Of a stretch of 64,000 nucleotides of DNA, positions 28,706 to 42,235 are shown piece by piece. Source of the DNA: Actinomycetes bacterium (GTDB taxonomy: Bacteria; Actinomycetota; Thermoleophilia; BMS3ABIN01); contig JAJYXB010000007.1 in assembly GCA_021791195.1 (NCBI GenBank), forward strand, positions 1 to 64,000. The letters run 5' to 3'. The notes below the pieces were generated by a model. The model made no database searches. It had not been told where the DNA came from and saw nothing but the letters and a program-made list of their open reading frames with translations. The translations under genes and the position numbers were made by a program. Positions within the stretch are counted from its first letter, which is position 1, and each line of letters starts with the position of its first letter.

Positions 28706-29392
28706 TTGACCTTAACCGATGCCTTAAAAATCGTAAAGCGCTATATATTGCTGATTGTCATCGTCGCTCTGGTGGCTGGTGGTTTCGGCTATTTTTACAG
28801 CGCCCGCCAAACCAAGATATATGAAGCGGATATCACCGTGCTGGTCGGTCAGAATCAGGGGCTGGCGGAAAACCTGAACCTGACCACGGCGCTGCAGAAC
28901 GTCGCCAACAGCATGAGCAAGATGATCACTTCGCGCACGGTAGCGGAAAAAGTCGTGGGCGACCTCAATCTCAACATGTCGCCGGAAACATTGCTTAACA
29001 ACCTGTCAGCCCAGCCGGTACAGCAGACGCAGCTGATCCAGGTGACCTATACGGACACCAATCCGCAGCAGGCGGCAAAGGTCGCCAATGGTGTCGGCAA
29101 TGCCTTCTCCGAACTGATCCAGAAAACGGAATCTTCGCAGAGCGGTCTTACGGCGCAACTGTGGCAGGGAGCCACCGTGCCAAACGGCAGCGTCAAGCCG
29201 ACGCCGACCCGGAATGGCATTCTGGCCGCCCTGGTCGGCTTGATGCTGGGTGTAGGTGTGGCTTTCCTGCTCGACAGGATGGATACCCGCTGGCGCTCCA
29301 TGGATGAGGTTGAAGAAAGTCTTGGTCTGCCGATCCTGGGCGTGATACCCCAGATGACCAGAGAAACCCTTAGTGAAAATCCCAGGTACTGA
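28706..29392 (+). CDS. Wzz/CapA-type polysaccharide co-polymerase
   Basis: This 228-residue protein has one membrane helix near each end (about 14-30 and 170-190), with an extracytoplasmic domain between them, the Wzz/chain-length determinant fold. It typically sets polysaccharide chain length and activates a cytoplasmic BY-kinase through its C-terminal tail. The tail here (VEESLGLPILGVIPQMTRE) is the part that contacts the kinase. The start is a TTG at 28706 with GGGAGG about 12 bases upstream. The kinase gene follows after two bases. Confidence 0.85.
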   Translation: MTLTDALKIVKRYILLIVIVALVAGGFGYFYSARQTKIYEADITVLVGQNQGLAENLNLTTALQNVANSMSKMITSRTVAEKVVGDLNLNMSPETLLNNLSAQPVQQTQLIQVTYTDTNPQQAAKVANGVGNAFSELIQKTESSQSGLTAQLWQGATVPNGSVKPTPTRNGILAALVGLMLGVGVAFLLDRMDTRWRSMDEVEESLGLPILGVIPQMTRETLSENPRY

Positions 29393-29394
29393 TA

Positions 29395-30093
29395 ATGGCA
29401 ATCGAAACCAATGATTATCAACTGTATGTAAAGCACTACCCGAATTCAGCGGTATCTGAAGCATTCCGCATGCTGAGAACCAACCTGCTGTTGACAAACA
29501 TTGACCGCGGTCTCAATTCGCTGGTCGTCACCAGCGCCGATCGCGGCGAAGGAAAGTCGACTATTTGCGCCAACCTCGCGGTGATCATGGCGCAGGCGGA
29601 AAAGAAGGTGCTGCTGCTGGATTGCGACCTGCGTCTCCCCAGCCAGGGGAACCTGTTTGACATCGCTACCGATGTGGGAGTGACCACGATGGTTGGCAGC
29701 TTCGGTGATGACCGGACGGTGGAAATCCCCGAGGAGGTCATGCCGGGACTGACCGTGATCGGCAGCGGTCCGCCTCCGCCAAACCCTTCGGAGTTTCTTG
29801 GCTCCAACAAGTTTCGCGCTTTTCTGGAACACATGGAAAAATCCTACGATACCGTCATTGTCGACGCGCCGCCGGTAGGCCTGGTGACCGACGCCGCCGT
29901 GCTTTCCGCACTTGTCGATGGGACGGTGCTGGTGCTTGACGCGCAGTCGGGACTGCGCAACCTCGCCCTGCAGGCAAAGGCTTCGCTGGAAAAGGTCAAC
30001 GCCAATCTCATCGGCGTGATCCTCAACAATGTCCGGCAGGAGCGAAACCTGTATTCGTATTACCACTATCGCGGGTACCAGGGCGAGGAATAA
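29395..30093 (+). CDS. BY-family tyrosine kinase (CpsD/CapB-like)
   Basis: This 232-residue cytoplasmic P-loop kinase autophosphorylates on C-terminal tyrosines and controls polysaccharide export. Walker A is SADRGEGKSTICANLA, Walker A' LLLDCDLRLPSQ and Walker B VIVDAPPVGLVTDA. The tyrosine cluster YSYYHYRGYQGEE ends the protein. Wzz-like and kinase parts are on separate genes, as is usual in Gram-positive bacteria. The cognate PHP-type phosphatase is encoded at 32649. Confidence 0.92.
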   Translation: MAIETNDYQLYVKHYPNSAVSEAFRMLRTNLLLTNIDRGLNSLVVTSADRGEGKSTICANLAVIMAQAEKKVLLLDCDLRLPSQGNLFDIATDVGVTTMVGSFGDDRTVEIPEEVMPGLTVIGSGPPPPNPSEFLGSNKFRAFLEHMEKSYDTVIVDAPPVGLVTDAAVLSALVDGTVLVLDAQSGLRNLALQAKASLEKVNANLIGVILNNVRQERNLYSYYHYRGYQGEE

Positions 30094-30363
30094 AACATAC
30101 CCGGGTTGCTCCTTCCCCAGCGGGTCCGGCTTTTCCGCGCCAGCGTCTGAACAGGCGCGTGCGCGGCCGCAGCTAATGTTAGCCGCGTGTTCTTCCGAAA
30201 TCTTGTGCGCGACGGCCCGCACCGCCTCGGTGCGGCGGCGCTGTGATAAAATTAATCAGATTGCCCATTCGGTAGGAGGAAGGGCTTATTCCCCCGACGA
30301 TTCCCCGAAATGGCGCATTTCTGGCTCGGCTGGCAGAGCGGGTCACCAAGGGAGTATCAGGAT

Positions 30364-31791
30364 ATGCCCGGAAAAAGAAGTCTGCACCGGTGGGTGCTTG
30401 CGGCCGACATCTTCTCAGGCGTGCTGGTCATTAACCTGGTGTACTTCCTGGTTGGATCGAATCCTTCACTGGCGGCTCCCAAGCACACCGGTCTCACTCT
30501 GCTGGACGTTCTTTTCTATGTGACTTTCATGTCGCTGGTGCTCACCAGCGTCGCCCTGAATAGTGACTATGCTCCGGGAAAGCGTTATTCCCGCCTGTCC
30601 GAAGCCGGTATGCTGGCTCGCAGTTCCCTGGTCTCATTTGCGCTGCTGGTGAGCTCGGCTTTCCTGCTTGAGGATTTCGTGCTGTCGCAGAACGAAATCT
30701 TTTCCCGTCCGGGCATCGTCTTCATGGTCACTGTTTACACCTTCCTCCTGATCGACATCCGGCTGATCGCGCACTCCTTGCAGAGCCGCTGGTTCGATCA
30801 TGGCGGCTTTCGCAAGAAGATGGTGATCGTCGGCGCTGGCGCCGAAGGAGCCAAGGTCTACGACCATCTGAAAGGCAAAAACTGGCTTGGTGTCAAATGC
30901 CTGGGTTTCGTGGATCAGAAAGCTACCGGCGCACCGGTAGCCGAGGCGCAGCTGCTGGGCCGCGTGGAGGATCTGCCGGCGCTGGTAGCTGAGCGCGGGG
31001 TGGAAGAGATCGTGATCGCGCTGCCTCCGGAAGAACACGAGCTGATGCAGAAGATCGTCAATAACGGCGTCCGCCAGAACGTGAAGCTGCGGATCATACC
31101 GGACGCGCTGGCTTATCCCTACAGTAACATCGACATCCAGGAATATGACGGTCTGGCGATGATTGACGTGAGCTCGCCCAGGCTCGACGTCATGCACAGC
31201 GGCGTCAAGCGGATCATGGATATCGGCCTGGCGCTGGTGCTGCTGGTCTTTGATCTGCCCTTCATGTTGTTCATCGCGGTGGGGATCAAGCTGTCGTCCA
31301 GGGGCCCGGTGATATTTCGCCAGACCCGGCTGGGGAAAGATGGCAAGAGTTTCGAGATGATGAAGTTCCGCTCCATGGTGATCGATGCCGACAGCCAGCG
31401 CAAGAAGCTGGAGCGTCGCAATGAAGCCAAAGGACCGATTTTCAAGATCAGGGACGATCCGCGCATCACCCGTTTCGGCCGCCTGCTGAGGCGGACCAGC
31501 CTGGATGAGCTGCCGCAGATCATCAATGTCCTGAAAGGCGACATGAGCATGGTAGGGCCGCGGCCACCGCTGCCCGAGGAAGTGGGGCGCTACAAGTCTC
31601 AGCATCTCAAGCGGCTGGCGGTGCGTCCGGGCGTGACGGGGCTGTGGCAGGTAAGTGGCCGCGATCGTCGCGATTTCGAGGATATGGCGAAGCTCGACCT
31701 GTACTATATCGAGAACTGGTCCGGGTGGATGGACCTGAAGATCATTCTGAAGACGATCCCCGTAGTGTTATCGCGGCGGGGGGCCTACTAG
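30364..31791 (+). CDS. Polyprenyl glycosylphosphotransferase (WbaP/WcaJ-like)
   Basis: This enzyme of about 475 residues starts repeat-unit synthesis by moving a sugar phosphate onto undecaprenyl phosphate. Four to five N-terminal helices lead to a CoA-binding-like Rossmann domain (KMVIVGAGAEGAKVYDHL). A further helix and the catalytic bacterial sugar transferase domain follow (KRIMDIGLAL, RQTRLGKDGKSFEMMKFRSM, RRTSLDELPQIINVLKGDM, VGPRPPLPEE, RPGVTGLWQVSGRD). ATG 30364 is favoured by AAGGGAG upstream; another ATG is 18 codons earlier. The 270-base gap before it holds a -10-like TAAAAT near 30245 and no gene. Confidence 0.92.
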   Translation: MPGKRSLHRWVLAADIFSGVLVINLVYFLVGSNPSLAAPKHTGLTLLDVLFYVTFMSLVLTSVALNSDYAPGKRYSRLSEAGMLARSSLVSFALLVSSAFLLEDFVLSQNEIFSRPGIVFMVTVYTFLLIDIRLIAHSLQSRWFDHGGFRKKMVIVGAGAEGAKVYDHLKGKNWLGVKCLGFVDQKATGAPVAEAQLLGRVEDLPALVAERGVEEIVIALPPEEHELMQKIVNNGVRQNVKLRIIPDALAYPYSNIDIQEYDGLAMIDVSSPRLDVMHSGVKRIMDIGLALVLLVFDLPFMLFIAVGIKLSSRGPVIFRQTRLGKDGKSFEMMKFRSMVIDADSQRKKLERRNEAKGPIFKIRDDPRITRFGRLLRRTSLDELPQIINVLKGDMSMVGPRPPLPEEVGRYKSQHLKRLAVRPGVTGLWQVSGRDRRDFEDMAKLDLYYIENWSGWMDLKIILKTIPVVLSRRGAY

Positions 31792-31833
31792 CTGCCGGAT
31801 CTGGCCCACCGGCGCGGGCATCGCGTCGCGGGC

Positions 31834-32532
31834 CTAGGTTTCGCCCTGTCGCAGGCTGCTGGAAGTAAGCTTCCCGTGGATGATGAGCCGGTGCGTGGTG
31901 TCCCAGATGGGGTCGCAGGTTATCAGCGTGATCTCGTCCTGGCCGTCGGAATTGAGCACCGAAGTATCTTCGGGCTGGGTGATATGCTGATCGGTCACCG
32001 AGTAGTTGAAATTGCCGTAAGGGGTGTGGACGATAATCTCGTCGCCCTTGGCAAGATCGTTCAGGCGTAAAAATGGCCCGCCATAGAGCACCCGGTCTCC
32101 GGCGACGGCAAAATTACCGTTCATCCCGGGAAGCGGAGTGCTTTCCAGATGGCCCGGGCCCTTGTGTAGCGCGCTGTCCGATGAGCCCTCAACCACGATG
32201 ACGTTAAGGCCGATCTTTGGTATCTCGAGCTTGGCTATGGTCTGTTTCTCCGAGAGCCGCGATTTGAAGGCGATCGCCAGCTGCCGCAGCTTGTCCCGGT
32301 CGGCCGCCCCCTGAAGTTTATCCAGGACCGAGTGGTCCAGGGCCAGCGAGGCCGCCGACTCCTGCTCGTATTGCCCGCGCAGATCGCGCTGCACGAAGTA
32401 GCCCACGACCCAGGTAACGGGGATGTAGAGAAGCACCGCCACACCAGCAAGAATCAGTGTGAGGCCGATTATTCTTCGCTTGGAGAATCTTTTGCGCTTT
32501 TTGGAGGTTTTTTCGGAACTCTGTTCAGACAT
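31834..32532 (-). CDS. Class D/E-like sortase with altered catalytic histidine
   Basis: This 232-residue membrane-anchored transpeptidase homologue has a basic N-terminus, one helix (about 21-45) and the sortase barrel. Catalytic Cys206 (ITLITCDP) and Arg215 (THRLIIHG) are present. The histidine normally found in A-G-H-R is Asp146 (NFAVAGDRVLYGGPF), encoded by GAC at 32095-32097, one base from a His codon. Without histidine the usual thiolate pair cannot form, so activity is doubtful. No LPXTG-type substrate is encoded nearby. It is convergent with the glycosyltransferase and divergent from the PHP phosphatase. Confidence 0.85.
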   Translation of the reverse strand: MSEQSSEKTSKKRKRFSKRRIIGLTLILAGVAVLLYIPVTWVVGYFVQRDLRGQYEQESAASLALDHSVLDKLQGAADRDKLRQLAIAFKSRLSEKQTIAKLEIPKIGLNVIVVEGSSDSALHKGPGHLESTPLPGMNGNFAVAGDRVLYGGPFLRLNDLAKGDEIIVHTPYGNFNYSVTDQHITQPEDTSVLNSDGQDEITLITCDPIWDTTHRLIIHGKLTSSSLRQGET

Positions 32533-32648
32533 TGTTGCCCTGTTTTGTTCTTAGCATAGTGGACATTGACCTTATTCTCAAGAATCTGCCTGTCCCGGCA
32601 ACAGAATTTAATGGTATGTTAGCGGTAAGTTGACCGGAAGGAATCTGA

Positions 32649-33422
32649 TTGAGATTTATTGATACCCACTGTCACATCATCCCGGGTGTGGACGACGGCC
32701 CCGCTGATGCCGATATCAGCCTCGATATGGGCAGGATCGCGACCGAGGATGGCATCGGCACGATCATCGCCACGCCGCATGTCGTCGAGGGCATCTACGA
32801 GGGGGCCAACCGTGCGGATAAACTGGCCGGCCTGCGTGCCCTGTTCGCGGAAAACGGCGTCGATGTCGAGCTGGCCGCAGGCGCTGAGGTGCCGATGAGC
32901 ATGTGCGCCGGAAATAATGGCGGGCTGCTGGAATCCCTGACGCTGGCCGGTGGCAGATATCTGCTGATGGAGACGTCCGAGACCACCTTCGAACAGTTGA
33001 GCCAGGCGGTCTTCAACGTGCGCATGCACGGATTCTACCCGATCCTGGCGCACCCGGAGCGGACCGGCTTCATCCAGCAGCACCCCGAGCGGCTGGCCGA
33101 GCTGATCGGCCGCGGCGATGTGTTCGTGCAGGCGACGGTGGCCAGCATCGAAGGCCTGTTCGGCAAACAGGCCCGGAAAGCGTGGTTGGGCATGGTGAGT
33201 TCCGGTCTGGTCCATCTTGTGGGCAGTGATGCGCATTCCCGCCGGATGCGGGCTCCGCGTCTCTCCGGCAGCTATGCGGAACTATGCCGGCTGGCGGGCG
33301 AGCATGTGGCGCGCATGATCATGTATGAAAATCCACGGCGGGTGCTGGCCGGCGAGAAACTGGTCACCGCAGTGCCGGCGCGCACGCGACTCGGCCTGTG
33401 GTCGCGGCTGCGCGGCAGGTAA
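32649..33422 (+). CDS. PHP-family tyrosine-protein phosphatase (CpsB/CapC-like)
   Basis: This 257-residue metal-dependent phosphatase removes phosphate from BY-kinases. PHP motifs run through the protein: IDTHCHIIPGVDDGP at the N-terminus, IATPHVVEGIY, GAEVPMS, YPILAHPERT and LVGSDAHSRRMRAPRL, giving a tri-metal site. The start is a TTG at 32649 with GGAAGGA upstream. It completes the Wzz-kinase-phosphatase control triad with the genes at 28706 and 29395. Confidence 0.9.
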   Translation: MRFIDTHCHIIPGVDDGPADADISLDMGRIATEDGIGTIIATPHVVEGIYEGANRADKLAGLRALFAENGVDVELAAGAEVPMSMCAGNNGGLLESLTLAGGRYLLMETSETTFEQLSQAVFNVRMHGFYPILAHPERTGFIQQHPERLAELIGRGDVFVQATVASIEGLFGKQARKAWLGMVSSGLVHLVGSDAHSRRMRAPRLSGSYAELCRLAGEHVARMIMYENPRRVLAGEKLVTAVPARTRLGLWSRLRGR

Positions 33423-33570: not shown

Positions 33571-34089
33571 ATGGACGAACTCAACCTCAATATCCTGGGG
33601 CGCGACGCGGCTCTCTCCGCTGACGACCCCGAGCGCGGGCGGGAAGAACCCGGCCTGGCGGTCATCATGATGATGCTGCATGGTGAGACCTTCGCTATCC
33701 CGCTCAGTCAGGTAAAGGAAATCATCCGCGTACCGCACATCACCTGGGTCCCTGGCGCTCCGGCAACCGTCAAAGGAATCATAAATCTCAGGGGGACAGT
33801 TGTCGCCGTGCTGGAGCTGGCGGCGCTGCTGGGTCATCCGGCAGTCGCGTGCGGTCAGACGAGCAGGATTGTGATCGTCGATTCCGCCGGCGCTGTCGCA
33901 GGCCTGCTGGTGGAAGAGGTGCTGGGAGTAGAAGAGGTAGCGTATGCAGCGATCGAACCTTCAATGCGTACGCTCGATGAGCAGCAACGCAACTACGTCA
34001 GTGCGCAGACTGAAGCCGCCGGGCGGCTGGTCGGCATCCTCGACATAGATGTGGTACTGGAAAATTCGCGGCCGGCCGAAAATTTTTAA
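33571..34089 (+). CDS. cheW: CheW-family coupling protein
   Basis: This 172-residue adaptor links the chemoreceptor to CheA. It has the CheW SH3-like double barrel with FAIPLSQVKEIIRVPHITWVPG, the conserved IINLRGTVVAVLEL, and a C-terminal GRLVGILDIDVVLE. It is the first gene of a six-gene chemosensory operon on one strand. The 148-base gap before it contains small GC-rich stems only. Confidence 0.92.
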   Translation: MDELNLNILGRDAALSADDPERGREEPGLAVIMMMLHGETFAIPLSQVKEIIRVPHITWVPGAPATVKGIINLRGTVVAVLELAALLGHPAVACGQTSRIVIVDSAGAVAGLLVEEVLGVEEVAYAAIEPSMRTLDEQQRNYVSAQTEAAGRLVGILDIDVVLENSRPAENF

Positions 34090-34111
34090 CCGATGAGAAT
34101 GGGGGTCAAAA

Positions 34112-35779
34112 ATGGCTGTTGAAAGCGGGATTCCTCCCGTACAGACTGGAAACTTGAGGGACATCGTTCCCCGCCGGAGGTGGGTGAGGAGCCTATTCCG
34201 CAACAGTATTGAAGCGAAGATCATGGTTCTGGTGACGCTGATCATCATCCTTGGCTTTGGAACATTCGCTGTTATCAACATCCGCCAGGAAAAAAGCAAA
34301 CTAATCGGACAGCAGGAGACGTCTAATCACGTCGCCGCCGATCTGGTCGCCAACGGCATCAAGGCGAGCATGCTGGAGGGCAAACCGGATTTTACTGTCA
34401 AAACCCTTCAGGACTTCAAGGGGATCGGCGACCTCAGCCAGATCCAGGTTTTCGACCATAAGGGCAATCAGGTGTTCAACGGCAGCGGTCCGGCCACCGG
34501 CGTCACGGCCGACCAGCTTTCCACTGCGCTTAAGACCGGTCAGACGGCCGTTTTCTATCAGGGCAAGGGCGACAACCGTGTGCTGACCGAGATCCATCCG
34601 CTGCCCAACGAGGCGGCATGCCAGAGTTGTCATGGCGCCGACAATCCCATGCGCGGCGCGGTCCTGGTTTCGACTTCGACGCAGCACATCGACAGCGAGA
34701 TCAGGTCCAATGAAGTGCGCACGGTGATATTCATGCTGGTGACGCTTCTGTTTGTGATCGCGGCGCTGAAATTGTCGCTCAGGTTCGTGGTCACCAAGCC
34801 GCTGAAGAACGTTGTTTCCGCCATCCGGCGGATCGCAGCCGGCGATCTCACGCGGCGGGTGGACCTGAAAGCGGATGACGAGCTGGGAGCGCTGGCCCTG
34901 AGTTTCAATGATATGACCGATGGCCTCAGCCATCTGAGCTCGAAGATCCGGCATATGGGCGAACAGACCGCGGTGGCCTCAGACGAGATTACCAGCGCCA
35001 TCGAGCGGCAGGTCAGCGCCTCCGCGGAGCAGTCCGCTGCGGTGACCGAGACATCGGCGACGATCGAAGAGCTGGCGGGCACGGCCAAGCAGATAGCCGA
35101 GACCGCCGAATCCGTGGCGCGCGTGGCGGAAGAGACACTGGCGCATGCGGAGAAGGGGCAGCAGGCGGTATCCGCCACCATCGAAGGCATGCACGCCATC
35201 AATGAAAAGGTAAACAAGGTGGCGGAAAAAACGCTGTCGCTGGGAGAAAAATCACAGCGTATCAGCACTATCCTGGAGATCATCAACGATATTGCCGATC
35301 AGACCAACCTGCTGGCGCTGAATGCCGCCGTGGAGGCGGCGCGGGCCGGTGATCAGGGACGCGGCTTCGCGGTCGTGGCCGGTGAAATCCGCCGCCTGGC
35401 GGAAGAGAGCGTCGGCGCAACCGGCAAGATCAAGGCGCTGATCGACGAGATCCAGGCAGAAACCAACAGTACCATCATGGCGACCGAGGAAAGCGCCAAG
35501 GAGGTCGGCCAGGGGGTCGAACTTGCCGCCGGCGCGGGGCAATCGCTGGAAAGCATCCTCGAAGTCGTGAACGAGAACACCGTGGCCGCCAAGGAGATAT
35601 CCGTAGCCACGCAGCAACAGAAGAGCGCCAGCGAACAGGTGGTCGTGGCGATGACCAATATCTCCGAAGCCAGCCGGCAGCAGGCCAAGAGCGCCAAACA
35701 GACCCAGAGTTCAACCGAAAGGCTGACCAGGGCGGCGCAGGAGCTGCGCGAGGCGATCGAGCAGTTCAAGCTGGAGTAG
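34112..35779 (+). CDS. Methyl-accepting chemoreceptor with c-type heme motif
   Basis: This 555-residue receptor has two helices (about 37-57 and 207-226) around an extracytoplasmic sensor of about 150 residues. A HAMP domain and the long signalling coiled coil follow; the hairpin tip is [26 protein letters not shown] in part. The sensor ends with [13 protein letters not shown], a CxxCH heme-attachment site (Cys170, Cys173, His174). Heme-c receptors of this type respond to redox state, oxygen or NO. It is the only receptor in the operon and so probably the dedicated input of this pathway. Confidence 0.92.
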
Positions 35780-35842
35780 GCAGTGTCTGTCATCACAGAA
35801 GCAGGCGGCAGTTACTAAAACCAAAATGAAAAAATATGACAA

Positions 35843-38221
35843 ATGAATAACTGGACTGACGATACGGGGTTTATGGAGACCTTCAGGGCGGAGGCCGCTG
35901 AGCGGCTGCAGGTGCTCAGCAACGGTCTGATGCATCTCGAGGAGTCTCCCGGCGACGAGGAGATGCTCAAGAAGCTGTTCCGGGAAGCGCATACCCTGAA
36001 AGGGGCGGCGGGCATGATGGGCCTGGACGCCATCAAGGAGCTCTCCCACCGCATGGAGGACATCCTCGAAGCGGTGCAGAAAGGCCGCGTTACTCTCAGG
36101 GGCGGCACTGCCGACCTGTTGCTGGAAACACTGGACCGGATCGAGACGCTGCTGCCTGAAGGTCAGTCCGAGCCGGAACCGGTGTCCGCTGTCGCTGAAC
36201 TGCTAAGTCGGTTGGAGGCGGTCAGGGGAAGCGATGAGGCCAGCCAGGTTTCCCGCGCAGATGTTCCGCCAGCAGCTGCCGAGGCCGGCGCCGAGCCAGC
36301 CACCGCGAATGCCGAGGCAGAATCAGGGACGGCATTAAAGGTGGTTGAGCCGGAGGCTTCCGGTGTGTTGCTCAGTCCGGAGCCCGTGATGGAGAACCGG
36401 ACTGCGCCACCCGCGGCGGGTGGCGCGGCAGACTCCCGGCAGAACGGTCAGCCTTCCCCGCAAAAAAACAGCCGGAATGAATCGACGATCAGGGTCAACA
36501 TCGATCGTCTGGATAATCTGCTCAATCTCATGGGTGAGATACTCGTCAACCAGGGCGACGCCGAGGAGAAGATCGGCGGTCTGTCGCAGATGCAGAACCG
36601 CCTGCGGGAGATGAAGTCGCTGTTTGCCGGTCTGCGCGACCAGGTCAGGCGGCTTAAGGGAGAGGTCGAGGCGGAACGCATGGATGTCATCGACCAGCAG
36701 ATCATCCGGATGGAAGATACCCTGGCCCGGACGGTGGATGAGATGGGCTCAGTCACCAAGGGCATCCGGGAGAATACAAACAGCCGCAGGCTGGCGCTCG
36801 ACGATCTGCAGGATCAGGCGCTGCACGTGCGCATGCTGCCGATCGCTAGCATATTTTCGCTCTACCCGCGTGTTGCCCGCAGCGCCGCCGCGAGCACGAA
36901 AAAGAAGGTGCTGCTGAAGGTCGGCGGCGAGAAGACGGAGCTCGACAAGCGCATCCTGGAGCAGGTCGCCGATCCCCTGATGCACATCGTCCGCAACTGT
37001 GTCGATCATGGCATCGAGTCGCCGGCAGAGCGTGAAGCTGTCGGGAAACCGCAACAGGGGACGATCTGGCTGAAGGCGTCGCAGCGCGGCGACCGCGTCG
37101 AGATCACGGTCGAGGATGACGGTGGTGGCATCAATCCTGACAAGATCAGGGCGGCGGCGGCAGCCAGGGGCATCATCGCCGAAAGCGACTCGCTGTCCGA
37201 TGAGGAGGCGGTGCAGCTTATCTTCAAGACGGGATTCTCGACAGCCGACGCGGTGACGGCGCTTTCCGGCCGCGGCGTAGGTCTGGATGTGGTGAGGAAC
37301 AACATCGAGAAGCTGGAGGGCTCGGTGGGCGTCGAATCCGAAATCGGCACGGGGACGAAGTTCAAGGTCTCGCTGCCGGTCACGCTCGCGGTCATAAACG
37401 GTCTGCTGGTAGGTTCGGACGAGTCGCGCTTCATCATCCCGATGGCATCTGTGAAGGAGTTGGTGTCACTGGCTCCGGACGATATCCAGTCGCTCGGCAC
37501 TCACAAGGGATTTTTAATGCGCGGCAGCGCCGTTCCGCTCATCGACCTGAAGGAATTTCTGGGCGGCAATGCCACGGAAGCGGAAAGCCGCAAGCTGCGG
37601 GTGGTGATCGTCGGCGCGGAGCGTGACCGGCTGGGCCTGATCGTTGGAAATCTCGCCGGCGAGCGCGAAACCGTCATCAAGAGTCTGGGAGAATTCCTGC
37701 CTCACCTGCGATTCATTGCTGGCGTCACGGTCCTGGGCAGCGGTGAGCCCGTGCTGGTGCTGAACATCAACGAGCTGGTCTGCGCAGTGAAGGAAGGCAC
37801 GAGCTTCCGCGACGCCTCCCGGCCCGTGGTGGAGGCGGCAGCGGGGCCAGCCGACAGAAAAGCGGTCCTCGTGGTCGAGGACTCGCTGGTCGTGCGCGAA
37901 ATGCAGCGTAACATCCTCGAAGCGGCCGGCTATCAGGTAGATACCGCGGTGGATGGCAACGATGCGCTTTCGCAGCTGTCGGTCAAACCGGTCGACTGCG
38001 TGGTCACCGACATCGAGATGCCGGGCATGGATGGATTCCACCTCACCTCTGCCATCAGGCGCAACAAGGAGATTAGCGACATCCCGGTAATCATGGTCTC
38101 ATCCCGCAGCAGCGACGACGACAAGCGTAAAGGGGCCGAGGCGGGCGCAAATGCGTACGTCGTCAAGGGCTCCTTCGATCAGCAGAATCTGCTTGATACC
38201 ATCTGCCGGCTGGTTGCCTGA
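35843..38221 (+). CDS. cheA: Hybrid histidine kinase CheA-REC
   Basis: This 792-residue kinase has an N-terminal HPt domain (P1) with phospho-acceptor His50 (REAHTLKGAAGMMG). An Ala/Pro/Glu-rich linker, dimerisation helices and the ATPase (HIVRNCVDHGIESP, VEDDGGGINPD, GRGVGLDVVRNNIE) follow, then the CheW-like P5. A receiver domain is fused at the end (VLVVEDSLVVRE, Asp723 in VVTDIEMPGMDG). CheA-REC hybrids are typical of Wsp/Frz-like pathways rather than simple flagellar chemotaxis. Residues 90-210 have no P2-like domain that I can recognise. Confidence 0.93.
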   Translation: MNNWTDDTGFMETFRAEAAERLQVLSNGLMHLEESPGDEEMLKKLFREAHTLKGAAGMMGLDAIKELSHRMEDILEAVQKGRVTLRGGTADLLLETLDRIETLLPEGQSEPEPVSAVAELLSRLEAVRGSDEASQVSRADVPPAAAEAGAEPATANAEAESGTALKVVEPEASGVLLSPEPVMENRTAPPAAGGAADSRQNGQPSPQKNSRNESTIRVNIDRLDNLLNLMGEILVNQGDAEEKIGGLSQMQNRLREMKSLFAGLRDQVRRLKGEVEAERMDVIDQQIIRMEDTLARTVDEMGSVTKGIRENTNSRRLALDDLQDQALHVRMLPIASIFSLYPRVARSAAASTKKKVLLKVGGEKTELDKRILEQVADPLMHIVRNCVDHGIESPAEREAVGKPQQGTIWLKASQRGDRVEITVEDDGGGINPDKIRAAAAARGIIAESDSLSDEEAVQLIFKTGFSTADAVTALSGRGVGLDVVRNNIEKLEGSVGVESEIGTGTKFKVSLPVTLAVINGLLVGSDESRFIIPMASVKELVSLAPDDIQSLGTHKGFLMRGSAVPLIDLKEFLGGNATEAESRKLRVVIVGAERDRLGLIVGNLAGERETVIKSLGEFLPHLRFIAGVTVLGSGEPVLVLNINELVCAVKEGTSFRDASRPVVEAAAGPADRKAVLVVEDSLVVREMQRNILEAAGYQVDTAVDGNDALSQLSVKPVDCVVTDIEMPGMDGFHLTSAIRRNKEISDIPVIMVSSRSSDDDKRKGAEAGANAYVVKGSFDQQNLLDTICRLVA

Positions 38222-38227
38222 GGCACG

Positions 38228-39295
38228 ATGGAAGCGCATCCCCAAAAAGATAATTCCCGCATCAGGGTGCTGGTAGCCGATGACTCGCCGACCGTCCGGA
38301 TGATGCTTTGCCGCATGCTGGAAGCCGATCCGCAGATCGTGATCGTCGGCATGGCCGACAACGGCCGCGAGGCGGTCGATCAGGTGGCGATGCTCAAACC
38401 TGACCTGGTGACCATGGACGTGCGCATGCCGGTGATGGACGGCCTGAGAGCCATCGAGCAGATCATGGCCTACAGTCCCGTGCCGGTGCTGGTGGTCAGC
38501 TCCGTCGTGGACCCGGAGCATACCACTAACGCCGCCAAGGCTCTGGGCGCCGGCGCCGTCGATGTCATGTCCAAGCCAGAGCCAAAATCGCTGGCGGAGT
38601 TCAACCAGATCGCTCTGGAGCTGCAAGGCAAAGTCAGGCTGCTTTCGCGCGTACGCGTTATCACCCATCCCCGCGCCCGGCTCCAGGAACGCGAGCAGGA
38701 GACCAGGAAGCCGCGGACGGCCCGGGACAGGGAGAGGAGCAGTAAACTGGTGGCGGTCGCCTCTTCTACCGGAGGACCCCAGGCCCTTCAGGCGATCCTC
38801 AGCAAACTGCCTCAGGATTTTCCCGCCGGTATCCTGGTCGTGCAGCACATCGCCCGCGGTTTTACCGAAGGGCTGGTCAGCTGGCTGGGATCCAGCTGCC
38901 GGCTGAAGGTGCGTCAGGGCGCTGACGGTGAACCGATCGTACCGGGAGAAGTGATGGTCGCTCCGGATGCGATCCACATGATCGTGACGCCGGAACGGCG
39001 CATCGGCCTGGTTGACCGGCAGATCGCCAGCCCTCATAAACCTTCGGCGGACGTGCTGCTGGAATCGGTGGCTGCGGTTTACGGAAACGAAGCCGTCGGT
39101 GTCATTCTCACCGGGATGGGCCGCGATGGCGCCTCCGGGATCAAGGCGATCCATGACAGCGGCGGCCATACGATCGCGCAGGACGAGAACTCGTCCGTGA
39201 TATTCAGCATGGCCAAGGAAGCGATCATGCTGGGCGGAGTGGAGAATGTGGTGCCTCTCACAGACATCAATGGAATACTGAAAGCGATTGTGTGA
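38228..39295 (+). CDS. cheB: Chemoreceptor methylesterase CheB
   Basis: This 355-residue enzyme has a receiver domain (VLVADDSPTVRMML, TMDVRMPVMDG) joined by a charged linker to the methylesterase. The catalytic triad is visible as Ser in VASSTGGPQ, His in VVQHIARGF and Asp in LTGMGRDGASG. It demethylates the receptor to adapt signalling. In this operon it would correspond to WspF, a negative regulator. Its stop overlaps a possible GTG start of the next gene. Confidence 0.94.
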   Translation: MEAHPQKDNSRIRVLVADDSPTVRMMLCRMLEADPQIVIVGMADNGREAVDQVAMLKPDLVTMDVRMPVMDGLRAIEQIMAYSPVPVLVVSSVVDPEHTTNAAKALGAGAVDVMSKPEPKSLAEFNQIALELQGKVRLLSRVRVITHPRARLQEREQETRKPRTARDRERSSKLVAVASSTGGPQALQAILSKLPQDFPAGILVVQHIARGFTEGLVSWLGSSCRLKVRQGADGEPIVPGEVMVAPDAIHMIVTPERRIGLVDRQIASPHKPSADVLLESVAAVYGNEAVGVILTGMGRDGASGIKAIHDSGGHTIAQDENSSVIFSMAKEAIMLGGVENVVPLTDINGILKAIV

Positions 39296-39297
39296 CG

Positions 39298-40821
39298 ATG
39301 GAAGCAAGCCGGGAAAATGTGAGCCCTTGCCGGATCCTGGTCGCTGAGGACAGTCCTACCCAGCGGCGGATCATCATGTCCGTGCTCGCCCAGGAGGGCC
39401 ACGAAGTGCTGCTTGCCAGCGACGGCATCGAAGCGGTAACGCAGGCGTTTCAGGAAGCGCCGGACCTGGTCGTGCTCGATATCGAGATGCCGAAGATGAA
39501 TGGCTATCAGGTATGCCGTCTGCTCAAGGATGACTGCCGCACGGCGCACATCCCGATCATCATGCTCACCAGCAAGGCACAGGAAACAGACAAGTTTTGG
39601 GGGCTGAAAACCGGCGCCGACCGCTACGTCACCAAGAGCTTCAAGCTCACCGGGCTGGCGGCGACCGTGCAGGAGTTGCTGGAGTCAGGTCCGGCTGGCG
39701 GCGTCCTGACGCCGCAGGGCGGTGGCTTTCAGGCGGGGCAGGAGCCGCCTGACGACCAGGACATCGATGTGCTCTCGCGGGTCAATGAACTGCTGGACCG
39801 CAAGCTGTACGAGGCGACGATAATCAATGAGATCAGCAAGCTCAACACGCTGAGCGAGGATTGCGGCATCACGCTAAGCTCGATGCTGACCGTGGTGGCC
39901 AAGGTGATCGAATGCCACGTCTGTTCGGTTTTTCTGATCGAGGAGGCAGAACTTTTCATCCATGTTCACGACCAGGTCGGCCGCCGTTACTTCGATGAAG
40001 CGCGCCGGCGGATGCTCGAGGTGGCGCTGCCGTTGATGCGGCCCGGATCGAGCCCTTCGCAGATCAAGGTTTCGGTGGATTCCGAACCTTCGCTTGTGCG
40101 CGAAGACAGCCAGGAATCCGGCAGCATCAAATCGATGCTGACACTGGAGCTGAAGGCTCGCGGCCATACGATCGCGCTGCTGGCGCTCACCAGCAAGAGC
40201 GCGGATGCGTTCAACCACAATGTGCGGCGTCTGCTGGACATTATCGAGTATCCCGTCAGCCTCGTCGTGGACAATGCCCGCCTGCACGAGGGCACGCGCA
40301 AGCTGGCGATCACTGACGGCCTCACCCGGCTTTACAATCACCGTCATTTCTATGAGCTGCTGGAGCAGGAGTTCCAGCGGGCGACCAGATATGAAAGCAA
40401 GCTCTCGCTGATCATGATTGACATCGATTCATTCAAGCTGATCAACGATACGCACGGACACCAGGTGGGGGATGAGATCATCATGGCGCTAGCGGGCGTG
40501 ATCTCACGGGAAGTGCGCGATGTTGACATTGCTGCCAGATATGGCGGTGAAGAGATGGCGGTGCTGCTGCCGCAGACCGGCATCAGGCAGGCAAAGGCAG
40601 TGGCCGAAAGGATCCGCGCCGCAGTGGAGAATCATGATTTCAGCCTTCCGGACCGAGGCACGGTGAGCATCAGCCTTGGAGTCGCCGGTTTCCCGGAATG
40701 TGGCGCCAGTAACTACACGATGCTTGTGCAGGTGGCGGATGCTGCACTGTATGAAGCCAAGAAGGCAGGAAAAAACTGCGTCAGAACAGGAAAATGCCAT
40801 GGAACAGCTAAAGAGATATAA
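39298..40821 (+). CDS. REC-GAF-like-GGDEF diguanylate cyclase (WspR-like)
   Basis: This response regulator of about 507 residues has an N-terminal receiver (ILVAEDSPTQRR, VVLDIEMPKMNG, TSKAQETD). A middle GAF-like segment (about 180-340) precedes a GGDEF domain with the active motif RYGGEEM. An upstream RDVD, five residues before GGEE, is the inhibitory I-site. It should make c-di-GMP when phosphorylated by the CheA of this operon and be product-inhibited. ATG 39298 is used; a GTG two codons earlier overlaps the cheB stop. The cyclase replaces CheY as the output protein. Confidence 0.92.
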   Translation: MEASRENVSPCRILVAEDSPTQRRIIMSVLAQEGHEVLLASDGIEAVTQAFQEAPDLVVLDIEMPKMNGYQVCRLLKDDCRTAHIPIIMLTSKAQETDKFWGLKTGADRYVTKSFKLTGLAATVQELLESGPAGGVLTPQGGGFQAGQEPPDDQDIDVLSRVNELLDRKLYEATIINEISKLNTLSEDCGITLSSMLTVVAKVIECHVCSVFLIEEAELFIHVHDQVGRRYFDEARRRMLEVALPLMRPGSSPSQIKVSVDSEPSLVREDSQESGSIKSMLTLELKARGHTIALLALTSKSADAFNHNVRRLLDIIEYPVSLVVDNARLHEGTRKLAITDGLTRLYNHRHFYELLEQEFQRATRYESKLSLIMIDIDSFKLINDTHGHQVGDEIIMALAGVISREVRDVDIAARYGGEEMAVLLPQTGIRQAKAVAERIRAAVENHDFSLPDRGTVSISLGVAGFPECGASNYTMLVQVADAALYEAKKAGKNCVRTGKCHGTAKEI

Positions 40822-42235
40822 ACTCACCGAAGAAGATTTCGAGCGTTTTCGCAAGTTGATCAATCAGGCCAGCGGCATGTTCTTCGACCGCGGCAAGCGG
40901 GACGTCCTCCAGCTGGGGCTATCGGACCGGGCCGAGGCGGTGGGAGCCACCACGCTCAGCGATTACTACGATCTGCTCACTGCCGATCCCGAAAGGGAGA
41001 ACGAGGTGCGCCAGCTGCTGGCCCACCTTTCCGTGCAGGAGACCCAGTTCTTCCGCAATCTGCCGCAGTTCGATGCGTTGCGCAAGTTCATTATCCCCGA
41101 GATTACGCGCCGCAAGGCCGGGGAGCACCGGACGATGCGCTTCTGGTGCGCCGGCTGTTCCACCGGCCAGGAACCGTATTCGGTAGCGATGTCGGTGATG
41201 GACGTGCTGCCCGATCCCGGCTCATGGAATATCGAGGTGCTCGGCACTGACCTGAACGAACAGGCGCTCGAGGTTGCCAGGCGCGGCTGGTATCCGGAGA
41301 AGAAGCTGACGGGCATCGACCGCTCTCATCTGGAGCGGTATTTCCGCCCCCAGGACGGGGGCTACGTGATTTCCGAGCCGGTCAGAAGGGCGGTTAAATT
41401 CGCGCGCCACAACCTTGTCAGCGACAACCTGCCCATCTCCGTTTTCGGTACGTGCGACGCTGTTTTTTGCCGAAATGTGATCATTTATTTCAGCCACGAG
41501 ACCGCCAAGTACGTGATCGAGCACTTCTTCGATATCCTCAATCCGGGCGGCTACCTCTTTCTTGGTCACTCGGAAACGCTGTGGAAGATGTCAGCGAAGT
41601 ATTCGCTGGTGGAAATGGGCGATGCGTTCATCTACCGCAAGCCGTTGCCGATGTCGATCGAGGGCAGGCGGTTCATCCCCGAGCGGCGGATGCGCCATAG
41701 CGGCTTGCCGGCAGGCATCGGCAGCGAGCGCCGCGCCATCACGGACCGGCGGACGGTGCGCCATCCGGGTCATTTCGATCTGGCGATATGGGGCCGCAGC
41801 CATCAGGATACGGAAGCGGCGGCCGACGCTACCGGCGAGATCACCAAAGCCAAGGCCCACCTCGATCTGGGAGAGTTTGACCTGGCGATCAGTTCGCTGA
41901 TGGAAGCGATCAAATCCGACGGCGTCAGCGGCGAGGCATATTTCCTCCTCGGACTGGCGTTTGAAAAGAAGAAGGACCTCACCCAGGCCGAAGACGCCTT
42001 TCGCAAGTCCGTCTACTGCGAACCGGGTCTGAGCCTGGCCCATTTTCATCTGGCCAACGTTCTGGAGCAGGCGGGGAAGCTGAAGAACGCCATCCGGGAG
42101 TACCGCAGCGCCGCCAGCGGCTTTAACGACCGCCCCCCCAGCGACTGGGAAGAGGAGCTGGAAGTGTTCGACACCAGTTCGCTGGTGAACATGTGCGAAT
42201 GGAAGATCGAGAACCTGGGCGGACTCGAAAGCTGA
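40799..42235 (+). CDS. cheR: Chemoreceptor methyltransferase CheR with C-terminal TPRs
   Basis: This enzyme of about 478 residues methylates receptor glutamates using S-adenosylmethionine. The N-terminal helical domain (HLSVQETQFFRN) precedes the methyltransferase (RFWCAGCSTGQEPYS, VLGTDLNEQAL, CDAVFCRNVIIYF). The last 120 residues are TPR-like repeats (AYFLLGLAFEKKKDL, AHFHLANVLEQAG). The CheR-TPR form is that of WspC. The start at 40799 (MEQLKRYKL) has AGGAAA eight bases before it and overlaps the cyclase gene by 23 bases. Confidence 0.93.
   Translation: MEQLKRYKLTEEDFERFRKLINQASGMFFDRGKRDVLQLGLSDRAEAVGATTLSDYYDLLTADPERENEVRQLLAHLSVQETQFFRNLPQFDALRKFIIPEITRRKAGEHRTMRFWCAGCSTGQEPYSVAMSVMDVLPDPGSWNIEVLGTDLNEQALEVARRGWYPEKKLTGIDRSHLERYFRPQDGGYVISEPVRRAVKFARHNLVSDNLPISVFGTCDAVFCRNVIIYFSHETAKYVIEHFFDILNPGGYLFLGHSETLWKMSAKYSLVEMGDAFIYRKPLPMSIEGRRFIPERRMRHSGLPAGIGSERRAITDRRTVRHPGHFDLAIWGRSHQDTEAAADATGEITKAKAHLDLGEFDLAISSLMEAIKSDGVSGEAYFLLGLAFEKKKDLTQAEDAFRKSVYCEPGLSLAHFHLANVLEQAGKLKNAIREYRSAASGFNDRPPSDWEEELEVFDTSSLVNMCEWKIENLGGLES

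Follow-up and report, generated by a model that had tools for sequence, protein, structure and literature searches.

A six-gene chemosensory operon with a heme-c receptor and a diguanylate cyclase in an actinobacterium of the order BMS3ABIN01

Organization and Conservation of the Operon

The analysed window is a 64,000-nt stretch of contig JAJYXB010000007.1 (assembly GCA_021791195.1), to which all coordinates given without a locus label refer; the source genome, labelled G000, was examined by searches and in selected stretches. At positions 33571-42235, the window contains an operon of six genes, whose order, according to the open reading frames (ORFs) and Pfam, is CheW, a methyl-accepting chemotaxis protein (MCP) with a heme-c sensor, CheA-REC, CheB, REC-GAF-GGDEF, and CheR-TPR. 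The same analysis confirmed the six parts that an earlier sequence-only reading had recognized here. With a probability of about 0.7, judging from the sequence, these genes encode a chemosensory pathway that is complete and belongs to the “alternative cellular function” (ACF) type, with an output in cyclic diguanylate (c-di-GMP), in which the state of the heme would act through CheA on the cyclase; type IV pili are a less certain target.

All six ORFs are open, lie on the forward strand, and are tightly packed, with gaps of 22, 63, and 6 bp followed by overlaps of 4 and 23 bp. The first gene (33571..34089) encodes the CheW coupling protein of 172 aa (Pfam CheW, 1.3e-33). The receptor gene (34112..35779) combines the PF21563 sensor domain (5e-11) with HAMP (4e-14) and MCPsignal (2e-44) domains. 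The hybrid kinase CheA (35843..38221; 792 aa) contains Hpt, H-kinase_dim (P3), HATPase, CheW, and C-terminal REC domains; its phospho-His and ATP-site motifs are conserved across six relatives, and the C-terminal receiver is probably a phosphate sink or tuner. It is followed by the REC-CheB methylesterase (38228..39295; Pfam 2.6e-59, NCBIfam PRK00742 above cut-off), whose Ser, His, and Asp motifs are conserved in the relatives, and by the diguanylate cyclase (39292..40821; 509 aa; REC 3e-25, GGDEF 1e-45). The last gene (40799..42235) encodes the CheR methyltransferase with C-terminal TPR repeats (CheR 5e-57, TPR 6e-13). Its start is most likely ATG 40799, which gives a protein of 478 aa, rather than that of a longer TTG frame, given the starts in the relatives and the overlap with the cyclase gene. 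Promoter-like matches near the operon did not exceed the chance level.

The identical six genes in the identical order were found in five relatives: L003 (BMS3Abin01), L125 (G302), L127 (G067), L128 (G239), and L129 (G347). In a sixth, L126 (G381), which is located at a contig end, the last four genes are complete and the end of the MCP gene is present. The operon proteins of the source and the relatives are 42-80% identical. CpsB and gatCAB flank the operon in L003 and L128, just as they do in the source; in L125, L127, and L129, CpsB was not seen adjoining it. The neighbors in L125 and L129 are different (DNA polymerase A and S1-domain proteins), and the six genes nevertheless stay together, which speaks for the proposed pathway. 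The cyclase was found in 15 of the 19 genomes of the order and in 12 of the 13 good ones. In the G029 genome, which is 100% complete, the cyclase is absent and no CheA match was found either.

The Diguanylate Cyclase

The diguanylate cyclase is the only output encoded by the operon. Its translation starts at GTG 39292 (509 aa) or at ATG 39298. The GAF-like domain between REC and GGDEF is weak in the source protein and clear in L125. The motifs kept include the receiver Asp63 and Lys, the DIDxFK metal site, ND, the Asp of GHQVGDE, RxxD, and GGEE, and the metal- and substrate-binding positions are conserved in all seven sequences (the source and six relatives). By comparison with Hypr enzymes, the Asp of GHQVGDE presumably favors c-di-GMP over cyclic GMP-AMP (cGAMP) as the product. 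At its fifth position, the active-site motif has Met in the source (GGEEM) and Ile in four congeners (GGEEI); the cyclases of L128 and L003 have the canonical GGEEF. A plasmid-borne REC-GGDEF protein of Deinococcus (L166), similar by coverage, was discarded as a counterpart, as it adjoins an ordinary histidine kinase.

The Heme-c Receptor and Its Signal

According to the hydropathy profile, the receptor has two transmembrane helices (residues 37-55 and 205-223) with the extracytoplasmic domain between them. This PAS-like domain, of the sCache_heme type (residues ~78-190), was identified by the Pfam Mcp40H-20_sensor match (PF21563) and by similarity to the Geobacter heme-c structures 3b42 and 3b47 (GSU0935/GSU0582), and it contains a single c-type heme site, CQSCH, at residues 170-174. 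In the alignment with 3b42, Met87 of the receptor falls on chain residue 26. If the His of the CxxCH motif (chain residue 110) is taken as His144, this residue is Met60, the axial heme ligand of GSU0935 (PMC8396549), so Met87 would occupy the position of an axial ligand. Both Met87 and the CxxCH motif are conserved in five of the five relatives with a complete sensor domain. The signalling domain belongs to the 40H class by length, being 28 residues (four heptads) longer than that of Tsr (36H) and equal in length to that of WspA relatives. A CcsA-type cytochrome c assembly gene is present in the source genome. AlphaFold2 models built from two-row alignments had a predicted local distance difference test (pLDDT) score of 44 for the cyclase and 61 for the receptor and were set aside.

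A preprint describes sCache_heme domains as rare or absent in Actinomycetota (PMC12889525). Of 396 genomes sampled across the phylum, 11 have PF21563, in line with the preprint; these include all seven sampled members of the family of the operon host, and the order BMS3ABIN01 is thus an exception within the phylum.

The heme-c receptor suggested in the sequence-only reading was borne out at the sequence level; the redox control predicted there has a live competitor in the sensing of nitric oxide (NO). The receptor may respond to NO instead of redox potential, with the rest of the pathway unchanged and compatible with the proposed one, and we give this only slightly less than an even chance. 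According to the same preprint, sCache_heme domains, when fused to signalling modules, show tight binding of NO and none of O2 and resemble NO sensors (PMC12889525), and binding of NO by GSU0582 and GSU0935 was also reported in a paper which argued for a redox-sensing role (PMC8396549). However, Met87 aligns with the Met60 of GSU0935 that is released on redox change, and potentials of -156 mV (GSU0582) and -251 mV (GSU0935) were measured (PMC8396549).

Two further heme-sensor proteins are encoded on contig C19 of the source genome. At ~129.5-133.0 kb (L159:3518-6972), an sCache_heme histidine kinase-REC precedes two more proteins, a stand-alone REC and a REC-HD-GYP phosphodiesterase, and this sensor is apparently linked to c-di-GMP breakdown. 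At ~23-26 kb (L158:1018-3891), there is a 957-aa CxxCH sensor histidine kinase-REC-REC-GGDEF, the GGDEF domain of which is weak and possibly degenerate. Since these proteins carry GGDEF or adjoin HD-GYP, heme-c sensing in this genome appears to be tied to both synthesis and breakdown of c-di-GMP.

Comparison with Wsp and Actinobacterial Che Operons

The sequence-only reading matched the operon with Wsp part by part, with one CheW missing. The plasmid-borne Wsp operons of Cupriavidus metallidurans CH34 (L164), Novosphingobium humi (L167), and Mesorhizobium ciceri (L169), together with L168, were taken as references; they share the order MCP-CheW-CheR/TPR-CheW-CheA/REC-CheB-REC/GGDEF. The domain content did agree: a 40H-length MCP, CheW, CheR-TPR, CheA-REC, CheB, and a REC...GGDEF output are encoded in one operon in both cases. 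Wsp has two CheWs (WspB and WspD), whereas a single CheW is present here and in L003, L125, L127, L128, and L129. The correspondence does not extend to the gene order (CheW-MCP-CheA-CheB-DGC-CheR against Wsp A-B-C-D-E-F-R, DGC being the diguanylate cyclase) or to the architecture of the cyclase, which, unlike WspR, carries a GAF domain between REC and GGDEF. The heme-c sensor of the receptor is another difference from Wsp.

The phylogeny of CheA and CheB against Wsp, suggested earlier as a check, gave a partial answer. In the carefully built CheA+CheB+CheR tree, the operon and its relatives form a clade with 100/100 support (bootstrap/SH-aLRT, the latter being the Shimodaira–Hasegawa-like approximate likelihood ratio test), and the split parting Wsp and the actinobacterial Wsp sets (L145, L147, and L148) from this clade is supported at 80/92. 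The operon clade is not grouped with Wsp in the best trees, whether based on CheA only or on the three proteins, but the approximately unbiased (AU) tests, with p of 0.15-0.33, are compatible with a joint clade (operon clade with Wsp, p 0.245, 0.162, and 0.154; with the actinobacterial Wsp sets included, p 0.325). The operon could, then, be a genuine Wsp system that arrived, by transfer or by descent, along with the other Wsp operons; one CheW would have been lost, a GAF domain added, and the receptor exchanged. The common domain set, the equal 40H length of the receptors, and the AU tests speak for such a history; the separation in the best trees, the different gene order, and the absence of a second CheW from every relative checked speak against it. 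The receiver of the cyclase is only 31% identical to the WspR receiver of L164, compared with 46-52% for actinobacterial CheYs. Taken together, we find this descent unlikely. The operon probably was assembled separately and would do the job of Wsp. In L145 and L147, which belong to the same phylum, full sets of Wsp parts were found, with two CheWs, REC-GGDEF, CheR-TPR, and receptors 36H-like in length.

The stand-alone CheYs to which the cyclase receiver is 46-52% identical belong to the actinobacterial operons L130, L132, L135, L140, and L143, and the REC-GAF regulator of L004 falls within the same range of identity. In families f46, f63, f62, and f54, a gene of a PilB-type MshEN-T2SSE ATPase stands directly beside CheY, inside or at the end of the che operon (L130:3161-5014, L132:3675-5522, L135:2763-4658, L140:414-2117, and L143:3927-5630; those of L132 and L143 were identified by their BLAST matches to the ATPases tested with Pfam). 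These CheY-type operons (L130-L132, L135, L140, and L143) share with the operon related CheA-REC, CheB, and CheR-TPR, the receptor length, and the closest receivers. They differ from it in the stand-alone CheY beside the ATPase, in two CheWs or CheW domains, and in having no heme sensor. A sister-group relationship between them and the operon clade is suggested by SH-aLRT values of 97 and 63 in two taxon sets and by 56/63 support in the careful tree.

In families f50 and f68 (L134, L138, L141, and L144), a REC-GAF regulator without GGDEF is followed by a separate PAS-GAF-GGDEF gene. The CheA data spoke weakly against a single clade of the operon and these REC-GAF operons (p 0.029). Just upstream of the che operon in L144 (1139-2464), there is a single protein with a sortase domain and, after it, many TPR repeats.

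The comparison suggests that outputs were exchanged on one chassis and a Wsp-like function was reached separately. A more specific history is tentative, and we hold it to be somewhat short of even odds: the CheY of a pilus-driving actinobacterial system would have been fused to GAF-GGDEF and the receptor replaced by a heme-c sensor, with the pili now under c-di-GMP through the pilin riboswitch and the MshEN-PilB described below. The REC-GAF protein without GGDEF (L004) and the REC-GAF proteins with a separate GGDEF neighbor (L134, L138, L141, and L144) may be surviving intermediates.

Type IV Pili and the c-di-GMP Riboswitch

Type IV pilus genes are located on contig C14 of the source genome and encode PilB, PilT, PilC, and pilins. 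The MshEN domain of PilB was identified with 9e-18, and the N-terminus of the protein contains two 24-residue MshEN motifs with a 5-residue spacer, a layout described in PMC11656802. On the same contig, the region directly before a pilin gene contains a riboswitch and a strong intrinsic terminator (L154:12972-13165, corresponding to positions 44971-45164 of C14). The aptamer was assigned by Rfam to the c-di-GMP-I-GGC type (RF03167; L154:12972-13069; 59.9 bits, E 2e-11). On its 3′ side, there is a hairpin of 15 pairs with a T run (terminator of -28.4 kcal/mol, z -5.3), then a GGAGG site and the pilin gene with an N_methyl motif. No riboswitch was detected by Rfam in the che loci of the relatives. 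The pilin-gene riboswitch with its terminator and the MshEN-PilB in the genome of the operon are new in this analysis.

A riboswitch regulating pili via c-di-GMP is known in Clostridioides difficile, according to a reference cited in PMC11656802. Given this precedent, the pilin riboswitch, the MshEN-PilB, and the PilB-type ATPases beside CheY in the nearest sister che operons of the phylum, type IV pili are the most economical candidate target of the pathway, and c-di-GMP probably tunes them.

Another way to connect the operon with pili would be a chemosensory system of the type IV pilus kind, with a phosphorylated output that works on the pilus machine itself and with GGDEF as a c-di-GMP receptor, not an enzyme. 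The presence of the pilus genes in the genome fits this, as do the PilB-type ATPases after CheY in the sister operons of families f46, f62, f63, and f54 and the degenerate fifth residue of the GGDEF motif in the genus with the I-site kept. However, the metal and substrate positions are conserved in 7/7 cyclases, two of which have the canonical GGEEF, and PilB is neither in nor beside the operon. Type IV pilus chemosensory systems also have a stand-alone CheY/PilG-type receiver, whereas the receivers of this operon are all multidomain. We regard direct action on the pilus as improbable.

The Source Genome

The source genome has a length of 2.15 Mb and is 97.5% complete. The description of the host as Gram-positive stands: GTDB places the order BMS3ABIN01 among the actinobacteria (PMC9948709), and no Omp85 was found in the genome, which fits a single-membrane cell. 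Machinery for c-di-GMP, which speaks for the proposed pathway, is present with 13 GGDEF proteins and at least two HD-GYP proteins; no EAL protein was found. The second-best named match of the operon CheA is from a Frankiaceae metagenome-assembled genome.

The statement that neither CheY nor a flagellar gene is present was borne out as well. There is one CheA and one CheW in the whole genome, the only two matches to the CheW domain being the operon CheW and CheA. No FlhA (FHIPEP) was detected, and each of the four stand-alone receivers (on C8, on C22, and two on C19) adjoins another histidine kinase; a separate CheY and flagellar set linked to the operon was looked for on this basis and did not appear. 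A classical flagellar chemotaxis operon with CheY encoded elsewhere, for which the presence of every core Che protein might speak, was therefore rejected as hardly credible, save for the missing 2.5% of the genome.

The Proposed Pathway

We propose that the heme, on changing its oxidation or ligation state (His/Met to His/open, or binding of NO), would move the receptor dimer and, via CheW, alter the autophosphorylation of CheA. Phosphorylated CheA would hand its phosphate to the cyclase receiver and switch on c-di-GMP synthesis, which the RxxD I-site of the cyclase should cap. CheR-TPR and CheB would adapt the receptor through methylation. Less surely, c-di-GMP would then act on the type IV pili via the pilin riboswitch and MshEN-PilB.

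Several observations weigh against this pathway or its pilus branch. GGEEM or GGEEI in place of GGEEF may lower the cyclase activity. The twelve other GGDEF proteins of the genome also feed c-di-GMP. No PilZ protein was found in the source genome. The score of the riboswitch is barely above the curated cut-off (59.9 vs 59 bits), and motif I of PilB begins with Pro, not Arg, while its motif II ends with Arg, not Gln.

Another candidate target lies directly upstream of the operon. A capsule/exopolysaccharide (EPS) cluster at 28706-33422 contains genes for Wzz, a CpsD-like ATPase, a sugar transferase, a sortase, and CpsB; the last, a CpsB/CapC phosphatase according to Pfam (32649..33422, forward strand), is outside the core operon. 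Control of this cluster by c-di-GMP is possible.

Relation to Known Systems and Significance

The Esn network of Geobacter (EsnABCD) also comprises a 40H MCP, CheW, CheA, and a diguanylate cyclase response regulator as the proposed output; however, its genes are scattered and EsnA has a cytoplasmic GAF domain without a periplasmic one (PMC5585712), whereas here a single operon encodes a heme-c receptor. GSU0935, GSU0582, and the sCache_heme family share with the receptor the extracytoplasmic CxxCH domain, the position of the distal Met, HAMP, and the MCP domain (PMC8396549, PMC12889525); no cyclase output was found described for GSU0935 or GSU0582 in the literature. CheR-TPR, a multidomain response regulator, a 40H receptor (by length), and the absence of flagella are features that the operon shares with the ACF class of Wuichet and Zhulin, and CheR-TPR/ACF clusters are nearly absent from Gram-positive bacteria (PMC3447774). 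ACF classes were noted in six flagellated Actinobacteria (PMC10746217). Because of these reports and the Wsp sets in L145 and L147, a chemosensory output of the c-di-GMP type is not unique in Actinomycetota. The combination called undescribed in the sequence-only reading, an operon of a heme-c receptor, chemosensory genes, and a cyclase in a Gram-positive bacterium, was not found in the literature searched, outside which most subscription papers fell.

Most of what is known about chemosensory control of c-di-GMP comes from Gram-negative bacteria. In the present case, the operon is the sole chemosensory system of a non-flagellated actinobacterium, is conserved across an order, and has a sensor from a family described as rare or absent in the phylum. 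The series of operons with CheY and PilB, REC-GAF, and REC-GAF-GGDEF offers a natural set for studying how chemosensory outputs are exchanged. Together with the pilin riboswitch, the operon would connect redox or NO outside the cell with surface appendages through a complete and testable sequence of steps.

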